A stretch of DNA of 64,000 nt, from the NCBI GenBank assembly GCA_949283655.1, contig CASDTH010000044.1, positions 1 to 64,000 on the forward strand, given 5' to 3'. Each line of letters begins with the position of its first letter. Within the stretch, counting starts at the first letter, position 1. This document shows, one piece after another, positions 3,289-52,645 of the stretch. The stretch is from an uncultured bacterium (GTDB lineage Bacteria; Bacillota; Clostridia; Oscillospirales; Acutalibacteraceae). A program made the translations under genes and the position numbers. Under the pieces are notes generated by a model that was not told the DNA's origin, did no database searches, and was given only the letters and a program-made list of their open reading frames with translations.

Positions 3289-3448
3289 AATCAGACGTCA
3301 GACGTGGGAGCCGGAAGCAGTTACCCCAGAGACGGTGACAGAAAGCATTTTAACGGCTAGAATTTTTAGCCACCTGCCGCTGAGGTAAAAGCCTGAAGGG
3401 AACTACGTCTGACGTCTGATATCTGTCATCTGAAATCTGACTTCACGC
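3289..3448 (+). repeat. Composite TCTGA-tract repeat E1
   Basis: A core of about 100 bp (including GCCACCTGCCGC and TTTTAGCC) is bracketed by runs of degenerate TCTGACRTC-like units. The whole block is an inverted copy of 6177-6366, roughly 80 percent alike by eye. No ORF with an SD is present. Confidence 0.8.
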
Positions 3449-3460
3449 ACACGCATTTAG

Positions 3461-3823
3461 TGGCATCAAATGCTGCCTGGGCCTATGGCTTCGTTTGCGG
3501 CTCTGAACTGCTTGCGGGCTCCGGGAGAAACCTGGCGGGGCCTTCAGTCTGGCGCGGCGGTTGAAACCTTTCAGCAGGCCAGCGGCGGCAGGCTTTGCGC
3601 AGTTTCGGCGGGCTCGTGAGGGGACTTGCCTGCCGCCCGGCAGGCAAGCAGACGCCCAAACTGTTTGAGGCCACGTGAGTGGCCGAGTTTTTTGGGCGCT
3701 TTGCCGAACACCTCAAAGGGGGATAAAAACATACCAGTGCCGCCGCTGGCCATACAGAACGGCACCTTTTGCCTCCTTTTCCGGCCGGGCGGAAAAGGAG
3801 GGGCCCCGCAGCCCGAGCGGGAA
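3461..3823 (-). repeat. Modular repeat R2, inverted copy of 51143-51503
   Basis: The reverse complement aligns collinearly with 51143-51503 for about 350 bp. Shared landmarks include CTTGCCTGCCGCCCGGCAGG, GGGCTCGTGAGGGGACTTG, GAGTTTTTTGGG and GCCTCCTTTTCCGGCCG. It has several strong stem-loops, including GCCTGCCGCCCGGCAGGC and CCTCCTTTTCCG...CGGAAAAGGAGG. It is probably non-coding, although one frame stays open in both copies (see findings). Confidence 0.85.
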
Positions 3824-3857
3824 AACAGAAAACATAGCGCAATCCATAGAACACCCC

Positions 3858-6059: not shown

Positions 6060-6366
6060 GTTGGATTGTAAATTTAAGAAATTAGACAGTAAAGATGCAA
6101 TCCGGAAGGCATGAACCACAAAAAGAAGAGGCGGAAAACGTTGAGCCCCGGGAGAAACCTCCCGGGGCCCTTATTCAGATGTCAGATTTCAGACCTCAGA
6201 CGTGGTTCCCTTCAGGCTTCTGCCTCTGCGGCAGGTGGCTAAAAATTCTGACTGTTAAAATACTTTCTGCCATTGCCTCTAAGGCAAAAGCCTTTCGGCT
6301 CTCACATCTGGCGGCTAATGTTTGAAGCCTAATCTCTGAATTCTGGCATCTGAAATCTGGCGTCTG
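6060..6366 (-). repeat. Composite TCTGA-tract repeat E3, inverted relative to E1
   Basis: Positions 6177-6366 match the reverse complement of 3289-3448, with shared TTCCCTTCAGGCTT, GGCAGGTGGCTAAAAATTCT and TTAAAAT.CTTTCTG. The stretch before it (6060-6110) has AGAT/TTAGA units like those in E2. The block fills the gap between galU and the 55-aa gene. Confidence 0.8.
6144..6176 (+). terminator. Probable galU terminator hairpin
   Basis: A 9-bp stem CCCCGGGAG / CTCCCGGGG with an AAAC loop is followed by CCCTTATT. The same loop and similar arms recur within the modular repeats at 3511-3541, 50757-50783 and 51421-51452, so this terminator may itself derive from a repeat. Confidence 0.6.
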
Positions 6367-48369: not shown

Positions 48370-48660
48370 CCCATATTGTGCGGACAGTACAAAAAGGCCC
48401 TGGTAGGAAATATCATGTTTTAGGAGGAGAGGCGTCGCGCCAGCGGCGCCTCTCCCGTTTTGAGCTGGATGCGCTCGTGGTTGTAGAAGTGGATAAATTG
48501 ATCAATCATTTGGTTGGCCTCAGAGAAGGTGGCCGGCTTGCGCCGGTAGATGCGCTCTGTTTTGAGAATAGAGAAGAAATTTTCCGCCATGGCATTGTCA
48601 TACGGGTTTCCCCGTCTTGACATGGAGGGCGCTTGACAACCGCATAGCGAAGGCGCTGTG
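48370..48660 (-). mobile_element. IS3-family insertion sequence remnant
   Basis: The segment keeps the 3' end of an IS3-type orfB (next entry) and what looks like the right terminal sequence (TGTGCGGACAGTACAAAAAGG on the plus strand near 48377). The left end, orfA and most of orfB are gone. Sequence beyond about 48660 no longer reads as transposase. Confidence 0.7.
48420..48655 (-). pseudogene. Truncated IS3-family transposase orfB (C-terminal end)
   Basis: About 67-75 codons survive. They carry the highly conserved SMSRRGNPYDNAMAENFFS block containing the third acidic residue of the DDE motif and the following HFYNHERIQ. A full IS3 orfB has about 280 residues, so roughly the first 200 are missing. 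The frame continues a few codons upstream of the ATG at 48623 (QAPS) before similarity stops. It cannot be active. It marks a past insertion between serS and the AT-rich pair of genes that follows. Confidence 0.88.
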
Positions 48661-48784: not shown

Positions 48785-48922
48785 TACATTGTAATTTATG
48801 GGAATTCATTCTAGAGGCCGGGTTTCTGCCGTCTTGGAAGGAGGGAGAGGAAGCCTCGATTCATCCAAAAAGTTATTTTTTAAAACAACTTCTCGATAGA
48901 GATGCAAAAAGGGGGGATGATT

Positions 48923-49357
48923 ATGACGAAGCATCAAAAGAAAGTTCTTTTGGATGCTGCTATCCAGCCGGATTTACTGGAAAAGGTAGAGAATTATTTA
49001 AAGGATATTCAGGCAGTGCTCACCGGAAGCGTGCATGAGAGGGAATCCCATGTGGATATGCTTTGCGATGATATTGCCGATTATCTCAGCGAGAAGCCGG
49101 AGGCAACCATCCATGATATCGTGCGCGAGTTCGGTTCACCGGAACTACAGGGGAATGTCGCACTGGAAGAGGAGTTAGACTCCTTTCCTGAAAAAATTAG
49201 GCGAAAAATGTCTCTTCGAAGGGTGGTCGTGGTAGCCGCGGTTCTGGTTGTGACGATTGTTGGCATTGTATATGCGGGCGCATTAATCGAAAATCATGTT
49301 ATAGCTACTGGTGCCGGAGAAGAAACAATTCAAAACGTAGAAGTTGAAACCATGTAA
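48923..49357 (+). CDS. HAAS/DUF6120-like membrane protein
   Basis: The 144-aa product has an N-terminal helical region of about 85 residues with ADYLSEKPEATIHDIVREFGSPEL, the pattern of HAAS/DUF1700-type domains that precede membrane helices. One transmembrane segment (about 95-117) and a short outside tail follow. ATG 48923 has GGGGGG six bases upstream; ATG 48917 is too close to it. The next gene starts 18 bp after its stop, so the two form an operon. Clostridial pairs annotated DUF6120 and DUF6147 have this layout; that identity is from memory and should be tested. Confidence 0.7.
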   Translation: MTKHQKKVLLDAAIQPDLLEKVENYLKDIQAVLTGSVHERESHVDMLCDDIADYLSEKPEATIHDIVREFGSPELQGNVALEEELDSFPEKIRRKMSLRRVVVVAAVLVVTIVGIVYAGALIENHVIATGAGEETIQNVEVETM

Positions 49358-49374
49358 TGAAAGGATAGTAATGA

Positions 49375-49851
49375 ATGAAACGAAAGATAATGGCTGTAAT
49401 AGCTTGTATGATCCTCTCATTTTGTTTAGTGGCTAATGTTAGCGCTTTCATGGTTACTGAAGCCGAGCCTCGTATAGAATATTTTAGTGATGGAAGCTAT
49501 GTGACAACGGATATTATCGAAACGACAGATATTACAACTAGAGGAACGCTCTATAATAAATCAGCCGATAAAGTTTATACCTATCGAGATGCGAAAGGAA
49601 ATGAACAGTATAAGATTATCCTTCATGGAAAATTCAGAGTAGATAGTGGGGTAAGTTCTACTTGTATTGAGGCTACCGTCAGGGTTGAAATTACAAATGA
49701 TGATTGGAAAGTAATTTCACAATCTGCATGGGCGTCTGGTTCACAGGCAATTGCATCTGTAACATTAAAAAGATATTTATTGTTTATTCCGGTTGATACC
49801 GTAGAGAAAACCATTACTTTAACTTGCGACAAAAATGGGAATCTCACTTAA
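49375..49851 (+). CDS. Small secreted protein (DUF6147-like)
   Basis: The 158-aa product has a signal peptide (MKRKIMAVIACMILSFCLV... ending VSA near residue 24). A beta-rich secreted domain of about 130 residues contains EYFSDGSYVTTDII and HGKFRVDSGVSSTC. Base composition is clearly more AT-rich than most neighbours, which with the IS3 remnant upstream hints at acquisition by transfer. It is cotranscribed with the membrane protein before it. No enzymatic motif is visible; role unknown. The start ATG 49375 has AAAGGATAG upstream, a moderate SD. Confidence 0.75.
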   Translation: MKRKIMAVIACMILSFCLVANVSAFMVTEAEPRIEYFSDGSYVTTDIIETTDITTRGTLYNKSADKVYTYRDAKGNEQYKIILHGKFRVDSGVSSTCIEATVRVEITNDDWKVISQSAWASGSQAIASVTLKRYLLFIPVDTVEKTITLTCDKNGNLT

Positions 49852-50268
49852 ACCCACTATTCCTTTCTGTGCATTCGTAAAGTCCAGCTTTCAGCGAGGA
49901 ATCGTTAGAATTGTTTCTGCCGGATGGCGGCGGCAGCCGGCTATTTTTGCCTACCGCTTATCCGGCAGGAGCAGGCCTTGCCCGGAGCGCACATCTGCAT
50001 GCAAGGCGGCGGCAGCCACCTGGCTTGGCGTACACCTCACATGTCGCATCCCCTGCGGATGCGTGGATTTATAAAAGTTTCCGCAGCGCCTTGGCGGCGC
50101 TTTTTATCACTTACGGGGCGACCTATCCACAGCAGCTATACATAATGTATACGTATTTGACCTGGCAAGAGCCAGTGCGGCCCCTGTTCTTTCGTAAAAA
50201 CCCTTATCCTACAAAAATATGAGAAAAGTTACAGCTTTCCCGATTTTAATGCCTTTTCAGCTTTAAAA
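49852..50268. other. Gene-free spacer with several stem-loops
   Basis: No ORF here has convincing coding signs. Structures seen are GCCGG...CCGGC followed by TATTTTT (49919-49957, likely terminator of the DUF6147-like gene), CGCATCC/GGATGCG at 50045-50062, and AGCGCC/GGCGCT followed by TTTT at 50085-50105. A small RNA between 49950 and 50105 is possible but unsupported. Confidence 0.45.
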
Positions 50269-50271
50269 CTA

Positions 50272-50280
50272 TGCTATACT
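50272..50280 (+). promoter_or_regulatory. Extended -10 promoter of the RHH gene
   Basis: TGCTATACT forms an extended -10 element 40 bp upstream of the start of the ribbon-helix-helix gene; no clear -35 is needed or seen. Confidence 0.55.
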
Positions 50281-50320
50281 TTTGGCAATTTCGATAAGCA
50301 GAAAGGATGAGGGACTCCCC

Positions 50321-50524
50321 ATGAAGCAGGAAGACGTTCGTTTCACCATGTGCATCAGCAAAAGCCTGTTTGACCGGCTGAGTTATGTGGCCAATTTTTA
50401 TGGCTGCCCCAAATCACACACCGTTCGCCGGATGATCGAACAGCATGTAACGCAATTTGAGCGCCGATTTGGCCCCATCCCGCTCAGCCGGGACACAGGC
50501 GCAGGCGGTGGCGTGCGGCATTAA
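50321..50524 (+). CDS. Small ribbon-helix-helix-like protein
   Basis: The 67-aa product begins MKQEDVRFTMCISKSLFDRL, the beta-strand-then-helix pattern of Arc/MetJ-type DNA-binding proteins, with a second helix around HTVRRMIEQHVTQF. Such proteins act as dimeric repressors or antitoxins; no toxin gene is adjacent. ATG 50321 has GAGGG seven bases upstream; the in-frame TTG/ATT region before it is not used. It lies directly upstream of the repeat mosaic. Confidence 0.7.
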   Translation: MKQEDVRFTMCISKSLFDRLSYVANFYGCPKSHTVRRMIEQHVTQFERRFGPIPLSRDTGAGGGVRH

Positions 50525-50542: not shown

Positions 50543-50590
50543 ACGCTCCATGCCATAATAAAAAGGCATGGGGCGTATATTTTTGCTGCA
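50543..50590 (+). repeat. 48-bp direct repeat, left copy
   Basis: Identical to 51871-51917 apart from one extra A. It contains the stem CCATGCC/GGCATGG and ends GTATATTTTTGCTGCA. The two copies bracket a 1.3-kb block of repeats. Confidence 0.9.
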
Positions 50591-50721
50591 AACCAGGCAC
50601 TCACAAAAAATCAAAGAAAACCTACTGGTTGCACCACAAATGAAACATTGATGTTTATTCCGCTCGGGCCGCGGAGGCCCCTCCTTTTCCGTTCGGCCGG
50701 AAAAGGAGGCAAAAGGGGCCG
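50591..50721 (+). repeat. Repeat R1, copy 2
   Basis: About 130 bp nearly identical to 51077-51206, with only a handful of differences. Shared parts include AACCAGGCACTCACAAAAAA, ACAAATGAAACATTGATG and the stem CCTCCTTTTCCG...CGGAAAAGGAGG. Confidence 0.9.
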
Positions 50722-51060
50722 ATTGAAAGGCTCTTCCTCCGTGCCAGACTGAAGGCCCCCGGAAGGTTTCTCCCGGAGCCTGTAAGTAGTTTGGAGACTC
50801 AAGCGTAACGATAGGCCCAGGCGGCAACTACTGTCACTCAATGCGTGCACGTGAGGGAACTTTTTGGCCCGAAGGGCAAAAAGCGAACCTTCCCGCATGT
50901 TTGAAGCCGCGTGAGCGGCTGAGTTCGGGAAGCGTTCGCCGAACGCGCGGTGGTGTGGAAAGTTTAACAACCGCAGCCGCAGTGCCGTTCGCGGGGTCGT
51001 GGGGCTAAGCCCCCGGCTGTTTCTCTTGCCTCGTTCTCTTGTCAGCCAACAAGAGAATGA
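50722..51060 (+). repeat. Shuffled modules of repeat R2
   Basis: The part 50722-50830 matches 51390-51495 (GATTGAAAGGCTCT, CGGAGCCTG.AAGTAGT, AACGATAGGCCCAGGCGGCA). The part 50890-50945 matches 3658-3712 in the direct sense (TGTTTGA.GCC.CGTGAG.GGC). Order and orientation differ from the other copies, so the family is modular. Confidence 0.75.
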
Positions 51061-51206
51061 GGTCGCGTACAGCGAAACCAGGCACTCACAAAAAATCAAA
51101 GAAAACCTACTGGCCGCACCACAAATGAAACATTGATGTTTATTCCGCTCAGGCCGCGGAGGCCCCTCCTTTTCCGCTCGGCCGGAAAAGGAGGCAAAAG
51201 GGGCCG
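51061..51206 (+). repeat. Repeat R1, copy 3 (best-preserved)
   Basis: Matches 50591-50721 closely over its last 130 bp and the degenerate copy at 266-364 over its first 100 bp. Confidence 0.9.
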
Positions 51207-51503
51207 TTCTGCACGGCCAGCGGCGGCACTGAGATGCTCATGTATCTCTTTTAAGTGTTCGGCAAGCCACCCAAAAAACTCGCTGCCTCACGGCAGCTCA
51301 GACATTTTGGGCGTTTGCTTGCCTGCCGGGCGGCAGGCAAGTCCCCTCACGAGCCCGCCAGAACTGTGTGGAGCCTGCCTCCGCTGGCCTATTGAAAGGC
51401 TCTGCTTCCGCACCAGACTGCAGGCTCCGGGAGAAACCTCCCGGAGCCTGCAAGTAGTTCTGACCCGCAAGCGGAACGATAGGCCCAGGCGGCATCAGAT
51501 GCC
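51143..51503 (+). repeat. Modular repeat R2, reference copy
   Basis: Collinear with the reverse complement of 3461-3823. It contains GCCTGCCGGGCGGCAGGC and the stem GGCTCCGGGAG/CTCCCGGAGCC with AAAC loop (51423-51449). A further partial module (GGAGCCTGCCGCCGCTGGCCT) repeats at 51531-51551. Confidence 0.88.
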
Positions 51504-51639
51504 ACCCCTCACGGGCCCCCGGGAATGTGCGGAGCCTGCCGCCGCTGGCCTGTGGAAAGGCTTCAGCCACTCCGAAAGACGGAAGGGATCGAGAGGCTTT
51601 TCCCGGGACCAACGCTTTCTGTCTCTTGCTTTTTATGGC

Positions 51640-51800
51640 TCATGCCTTCCGGCTTCCACGTCTGGCGTCTCATGTCCGAAATCTGACGTCTGACTTGGCC
51701 GTTCCCTACAAAGCTGGAGGGTAGATTTTAAAGATTGGTTGTTAGATTTGAGACTGCGAAAATTGGAGATTGGATGGGAAAGCCGGAAGGCAGGTGCCTC
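51640..51800 (+). repeat. Composite TCTGA-tract repeat E4
   Basis: Runs of GTCTGACTTGG-like units (51655-51695), a half palindrome GGCCGTTCCCTACAAAG, AGATT/GATTGG units (51722-51775), then AGCCGGAAGGCAGG. The order matches E2 but the left palindrome arm is missing. Confidence 0.7.
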
Positions 51801-51870
51801 CGAAGGGAAAACAGAGGCATTTTTGCCCGGCTGGGGAGGATGTGCCTTACCAGCTTTTTCCGACAGGCTG

Positions 51871-51917
51871 ACGCTCCATGCCATAATAAAAGGCATGGGG
51901 CGTATATTTTTGCTGCA
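51871..51917 (+). repeat. 48-bp direct repeat, right copy
   Basis: 47 bp, equal to 50543-50590 except for one A. It lies about 95 bp upstream of nth and may shape its leader. Confidence 0.9.
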
Positions 51918-52012
51918 GACGAGGCTTGGCGGACTGCGTCAAATACAGTATAATAAAGCCGGACTGGCGCTTGAACCCGAGCGCCAGAGCATGAAAGGAA
52001 GAAGGGCTTTGC

Positions 52013-52645
52013 ATGACCAAAAAGCAACGCGCCCAGATGGCTGTGGATGCGCTGAAAAAAGAATACCCGGATGCGGTTTGCTCCCTGCGGGCGGAGGAGC
52101 CCTTGCAGCTGCTTATCGCCACCCGCCTCTCGGCCCAATGCACGGATGCACGAGTCAACCTTGTGACGCCGGCTCTGTTTGCAAAATACCCCACGCTGGA
52201 GGCCTTTTGCGAGGCACGCGTGGAGGATGTAGAGGCAATCATCCACTCCTGCGGCTTTTACCATGGAAAGGCGCGGGATATCATCGGCATGTCGCAAAAA
52301 ATCCGGGATGAATTCGGCGGCGTTGTACCGGATACGGTCGAGGCGCTCACCACGCTGCCAGGCGTTGGCCGGAAAACGGCCAACCTCATTGTGGGGGATG
52401 TTTACGGCAAGCCGGCCGTCGTTGCGGATACGCACTTTATCCGTATGTCGAACCGGCTGGGCTTTGTCAGCACAAAGGACCCTTATAAGGTTGAAGTGGA
52501 GATGCGCAAGCTCCTGCCGCCGGAGGAGAGCAATGATTTTTGCCACCGCTGCGTGCTGCATGGACGGGCCTGCTGCACTGCGCGCAAGGCGATGTGCGAT
52601 AGCTGCTGCATGGCGGAATTCTGCCCTAAGCAGGGCGTTGCCTGA
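52013..52645 (+). CDS. nth: Endonuclease III
   Basis: The 210-aa base-excision repair enzyme removes oxidised pyrimidines and cuts the abasic site. It has the helix-hairpin-helix LPGVGRKTANLIVGD with catalytic Lys, the catalytic Asp in VADTHFIRMSNRLG, and a C-terminal [4Fe-4S] cluster loop with Cys in CHRCVLHGRACC and CDSCC...FCP. Length is normal (about 210). ATG 52013 has AGGAAGAAGG upstream. It stands alone between repeat blocks and is followed by a probable terminator. Confidence 0.95.
   Translation: MTKKQRAQMAVDALKKEYPDAVCSLRAEEPLQLLIATRLSAQCTDARVNLVTPALFAKYPTLEAFCEARVEDVEAIIHSCGFYHGKARDIIGMSQKIRDEFGGVVPDTVEALTTLPGVGRKTANLIVGDVYGKPAVVADTHFIRMSNRLGFVSTKDPYKVEVEMRKLLPPEESNDFCHRCVLHGRACCTARKAMCDSCCMAEFCPKQGVA

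Follow-up and report, generated by a model that had tools for sequence, protein, structure and literature searches.

A structured mosaic repeat array between two copies of a predicted terminator at a derived gene junction upstream of nth

The block at positions 50543–51917 of the window (the whole stretch of DNA analysed, 64,000 nucleotides) is one locus among several dozen arrays of an uncatalogued, hairpin-rich mosaic family. It is best read as a new structured mosaic repeat resembling BIME and BOX elements, beside a predicted terminator that is itself ordinary. Taken as a whole, the reading that we favour with moderate confidence is that this BIME/BOX-like array sits at a rearrangement junction and that the terminator was copied jointly with it.

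The repeat block and its flanking hairpins

The first-pass annotation described the block as bracketed by 48-bp direct repeats that differ by one A, and direct reading bears this out (48 and 47 nt). The sequence at 50543–50590 is ACGCTCCATGCCATAATAAAAAGGCATGGGGCGTATATTTTTGCTGCA, and that at 51871–51917 is identical minus one A; a weak match between the copies runs on for 8 nt further (AACCAGGC and GACGAGGC). Each half of the 48-mer has two sites in the window, compared with 0–0.05 expected from shuffles, and a gapped pattern of its stem has two sites in the whole 2.59-Mb genome, both of them here. With two places only, a widespread 48-mer occurring alone, which had been proposed as grounds for setting the block aside, is ruled out. 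The pair of flanks scores 30–32, against a best score of 14–15 in 500–1000 control pairs taken 1 kb apart.

The 48-mer forms a hairpin with a stem of 12 bp (−22 kcal/mol, z about −5) that leads into a T-rich GTATATTTTT tail. This GC-rich hairpin followed by a T run, placed behind a gene, is predicted to be an intrinsic (Rho-independent) terminator; it differs from a typical one in being present twice, flanking a repeat array. Copy 1 starts approximately 18 nt beyond the small upstream gene's stop codon, and the orthologue of this gene in the one available congener (G001) has a different hairpin at a similar place, still containing GGCATGGGGC. Copy 2 ends no more than 5 nt from position 51922, the start of blastn homology to the G001 nth region. 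From these placements, copy 1 is taken to be native and copy 2 to have been added. None of the other fetched arrays of the repeat family carries the 48-mer, which is therefore not a terminus of that family.

Between the 48-mers, the repeat finder confirmed the two copies of R1 and the two versions of R2 (about 80% alike) reported earlier, the latter pair being output as two ungapped families (Table 1). The last base of the first 48-mer is also the first base of R1, an overlap that corrects the earlier description. Four ORFs lie inside the block; they have no Pfam match at E≤0.1 and were rejected as coding, in agreement with the earlier statement that no gene lies between the repeats. Coverage by fetched family loci is high from approximately 50590 to 51600, drops between 51600 and 51700 and is approximately 0 at 51701–51870 and over the 48-mers. 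The boundaries of the array fall within family modules and not at the ends of a complete element. Module G, found at 51606–51700, at 6072–6290 and elsewhere, is a second dispersed repeat (TCTGGCGTCTCATGTCTGAAATCTGA-like) that often abuts arrays.

Table 1. Features of the block and of the genes on either side of it (positions in the window)
Feature	Position	Strand	Basis or remark
Small gene, 67 aa	50321–50524	+	ORF list; match in G001:C61 (71%), at another locus
Predicted terminator, copy 1 (48 bp)	50543–50590	+	Hairpin and T-rich tail; native to small gene
Module A (R1), copy 1, from A position 9	50590–50721	+	Repeat finder, module mapping
Module B (R2), version 1, fused to A via shared GGCC; D and E missing	50717–50837	+	Repeat finder, module mapping
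Module C, with one putative structured unit at 50848–50944 (+)	50838–50989	+	Model match, 71.6 bits
Modules C2 and Hp (hairpins)	50990–51066	+	Similar sequence after unit in G160
Module A (R1), copy 2	51067–51206	+	97% to copy 1 (repeat-finder match 51075–51206)
Modules D and E, with one putative structured unit at 51257–51353 (−)	51207–51385	+	Model match, 105.5 bits
Module B (R2), version 2	51386–51504	+	Module mapping (repeat-finder match 51386–51505)
Another E copy plus tail, with module G	51505–51700	+	Coverage, module mapping
Stretch nearly without match in other fetched family loci	51701–51870		Coverage 0–1; weak matches
Predicted terminator, copy 2 (47 bp), added	51871–51917	+	Within 5 nt of synteny breakpoint 51922
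Likely nth promoter, TTGGCG-17-TATAAT	51926–51954	+	Conserved in G001
nth (endonuclease III)	52013–52645	+	HhH-GPD, 3.5e-23

A dispersed family with a covarying 96-nt unit

The block sequence has about 100 matches in the 2.59-Mb genome. Mapping of modules over about 35 loci gave a recurrent order, A-D-E-B-C-C2-Hp-A, in which the D-to-C core occurs in either orientation relative to C2-Hp-A. The family thus has the makeup of an interspersed mosaic repeat, with many intergenic copies built from a shared set of modules in varying order and orientation. Two more members lie within the window, at 266–363 and at about 3290–3830. Of 100 contig ends, 21 have a family match at most 100 bp away, indicating that the assembly breaks at the family. 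The family thereby accounts for many breaks in the assembly of this genome. The arrays lie at gene 3′ ends; for 17 arrays, counted on their own with a simple ORF caller, the neighbouring ORF pairs are convergent in nine cases, tandem in seven and divergent in one.

A search of Rfam gave no match for the block at E≤1, and six other loci gave only sub-threshold matches at chance level, so a known RNA family was rejected. Phage and plasmid records held no match for the block either, and an origin from these sources was likewise rejected; one viral-contig pattern had no match and a second had 16 short exact matches. In a comparison with 60 relatives, matches to the first part of the block came only from this genome, its one congener and, marginally, G025. 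A covariance search of 296 genomes, run with strict filters that may lose weak matches, found the unit described below in this genome, in the congener and in G160, from another genus (E 4.8e-5). The G160 copy (L255, 1501–1590) is a single one, in another genus of the same taxonomic family, and has a GAGA loop; the sequence after it resembles C2-Hp of the congener (local score 30.5; shuffle maximum, 16). By our reading, the G160 unit adjoins an ORF resembling NAD synthetase.

The core (D-E-B-C, about 450 nt) is quasi-palindromic, its D and C ends being inverted relatives of each other. Each end holds one unit of approximately 96 nt, and the two units are divergent, one on each strand. A unit comprises a hairpin (H2), an outer helix, an internal loop (UGUUUGA/GAGUU(U)), an inner helix and a GUGA loop. 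In a set of 20 copies, 99.6% of cells are paired and 78 are doubly changed. In a larger set of 48 copies, which are non-independent and were aligned by fitting to the model, hence leaning towards its structure, 97.4% of cells are paired and double changes occur in 20 of 23 pairs. For these 48 copies the covariation score was reached by 0 of 500 shuffles, and slid controls pair at most about half of the cells. Judged from these alignments, the helices of the unit covary as those of a structured RNA would.

Read on the strand of the unit, 10 columns contain G.U and 2 contain A.C, both small column counts. A count on a single strand of the entire core, in which the two units have opposite sense, gives about 16 and 15 columns, the nearly even split to be expected of a G.U bias tied to the strand of the unit. 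Of the 41 distinct sequences that have letters at the loop, 38 read GUGA. Because the stems covary, the GNRA loop is conserved and G.U lies mainly on one strand, structure at the RNA level is likely, and selection at the DNA level is possible as well.

Single-sequence folds of the whole core gave alternative long-range pairings; we prefer the local-unit model because the covariation supports the local unit. RNAalifold was also applied to the full set of units aligned with MAFFT; its result was discarded as poor (15–17 pairs) because replaced stems misalign, and a structure set by hand on one class of units resolved the misalignment. With one unit at each core end, on opposite strands, a transcript arriving from either side carries one unit in the right sense. 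By analogy with what has been proposed for BIME and BOX repeats, we infer that the units would function as RNA at gene 3′ ends, where they may fold, stabilise or end the 3′ tails of neighbouring transcripts.

Comparison with known repeat systems

The family is similar to the RAYT-associated REP/BIME sequences (PMC2817692) in being intergenic, in having many copies with modules in both orientations and in keeping its palindromes by complementary changes. REP/BIME sequences are built on a 20–40-nt palindrome with a GTAG/GTGG head (PMC2817692), whereas the core here is approximately 450 nt long with several hairpins, and both its GNRA loop and its bias towards G.U suggest RNA. A further difference is that no Y1 (RAYT-type) transposase (PF01797) was found in this genome by a search that was positive in five control genomes, and a RAYT origin was rejected on that ground.

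The pneumococcal BOX, RUP and SPRITE repeats are over-represented between convergent genes, and SPRITE is terminator-like (PMC3049150). The family shares with them a composite modular build, strong predicted RNA structure and convergent-gene placement; it differs in belonging to another genus, in its larger modules and double-headed core, and in that the block has no Rfam match. Under the definition of a MITE given in PMC3049150, the likeness lies in the high degree of base-pairing and in the inverted outer modules around the core of some copies (L047). Such inverted modules, which would correspond to terminal repeats, are present in some arrays and absent from others, and the family differs further from MITEs in being GC-rich and apparently without constant ends, a constant target-site duplication or an identified transposase.

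The class is known chiefly through short REPs, and this family adds to it a large, strongly covarying and apparently orientation-independent member that has no Y1 transposase. The family also offers a concrete way to test whether repeats of this sort mark rearrangement breakpoints and copy terminators.

The junction with nth and the origin of the block

The downstream gene is nth, as annotated in the first pass (Table 1). The RHH label given to the upstream gene has no support from Pfam, in which the 67-aa protein has no match. This gene is the last part of a three-gene cluster (48902–50524) that is kept together in G001:C61 and consists of a DUF6120/HAAS-like protein (below cut-off), a possible secreted protein and the small protein. 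Upstream of the cluster, at 48420–48620 (−), lies a truncated fragment of an IS3-type transposase (integrase core, Pfam rve_2, 1.5e-10).

The junction of small gene, block and nth is derived and lineage-specific, as judged by comparisons that rest on one congener (G001) and draft assemblies. In G001 and G003, nth adjoins a divergent glyA without an array, and nth and glyA lie within 1 kb of each other in 15 of the 109 nth loci examined (G001 and G003 included). Since these loci come from several lineages, and the divergent pair without an array is also found elsewhere in the order, it is likely to be the ancestral state. The glyA gene of this genome lies at a different place, next to a transporter cluster, and the small gene lies at another locus in G001, with a terminator of its own and no array; it is the nth-glyA pairing in G001 and G003, together with this placement of the small gene, that marks the junction as derived. 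The block is accordingly not at the same place in all relatives, being absent from the nth loci of G001 and G003. An Nth search of genome contigs returned no close member of the genus (best match, 79% identity). By eye, a lone 5S rRNA appears to lie in this genome at about 1125–1240 of L202, between the Crp/transporter cluster and glyA.

In the reading that we favour, a rearrangement would have parted nth from its ancestral neighbour glyA and brought it downstream of the small gene. That rearrangement would also have supplied the array and the second terminator, together or in quick succession and probably in a single event, by copying at the hairpin (template switch or repair synthesis) and not by clean transposition of a complete element. 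A simple reciprocal inversion (glyA|nth against transporter|small gene) was rejected; the gene orders of G000:C20 and G001:C61 misfit one exchange. The last 20 kb of the window contain many other breaks in synteny with G001, so array and breakpoint may fall together by chance, and their coincidence is weak evidence that arrays cause breaks.

Strong flanking repeats were found in 3 of 18 arrays, this one included. L051 has a direct flanking hairpin repeat (26/30 positions) and L047 an inverted one (31/31), with control maxima of 14–15 in both cases. In G001, too, arrays adjoin two of the genes concerned, the one to the right of L051 and the one to the left of L047. Terminator-like hairpins beside arrays thus seem to have been duplicated or replaced repeatedly.

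The earlier suggestion that the block was duplicated or moved as one piece holds in so far as the block is foreign to the ancestral locus and belongs to a dispersed family; it holds less well in that the 48-mer is predicted to be the terminator of a gene and the array starts and ends in mid-module. No empty site that retains a single 48-bp copy was found, and movement as one piece is one of several possible ways to this structure. In its specific form, the block would have been inserted as one mobile piece into the terminator of a small gene that was already the neighbour of nth, duplicating a 48-bp target as a long target-site duplication or a recombinase att-like site. This course fits the near identity of the 48-mers and a duplicated segment that ends at the start of the array on the left and at the start of the nth flank on the right, and L051 is likewise flanked by a direct hairpin repeat. 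We nevertheless consider it somewhat unlikely: the array starts inside module A and not at the end of a complete element, most of the 18 arrays are without such repeats and the copies at L047 are inverted, the genome has no Y1 transposase and no integrase was seen beside the block. A duplication of 48 bp is, moreover, long for a transposon.

Very unlikely, in our judgement, is a course in which a local tandem duplication first doubled the terminator and recombination with other arrays later placed the array between the two copies. In favour of this course, the copies in the array are pieces of a tandem family that is rearranged everywhere, and the two A copies are 97% alike; it calls, however, for two independent events at one spot, with an insertion exactly at the edge of copy 1. 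Least probable, and highly improbable, is that a mis-join in a short-read draft produced the repeat order seen between the 48-mers: the family does break the assembly, as the contig ends attest, but a one-base difference separates the 48-mers and their unique flanks differ, with the true nth promoter region on the right and the true gene end on the left.

A further reading, which we hold to be decidedly doubtful, is that the arrays are a double-headed, structured repeat of a new class. Its two divergent RNA units would allow it to act in either orientation at the 3′ ends of genes, and it would spread by placing copies of itself beside terminator hairpins, which are duplicated in the process. 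A hairpin around GGGCGCGTTGCAGAATGAATATCTGCAACGCGCCC is common to the flanks of three arrays (L057, L062 and L063), so flanks may travel with arrays. At about 11311–11340 of L052, one CRISPR-like repeat, GTCGCCCTCCGGGGCGTGGATTGAAAT, was noticed by eye beside an array.
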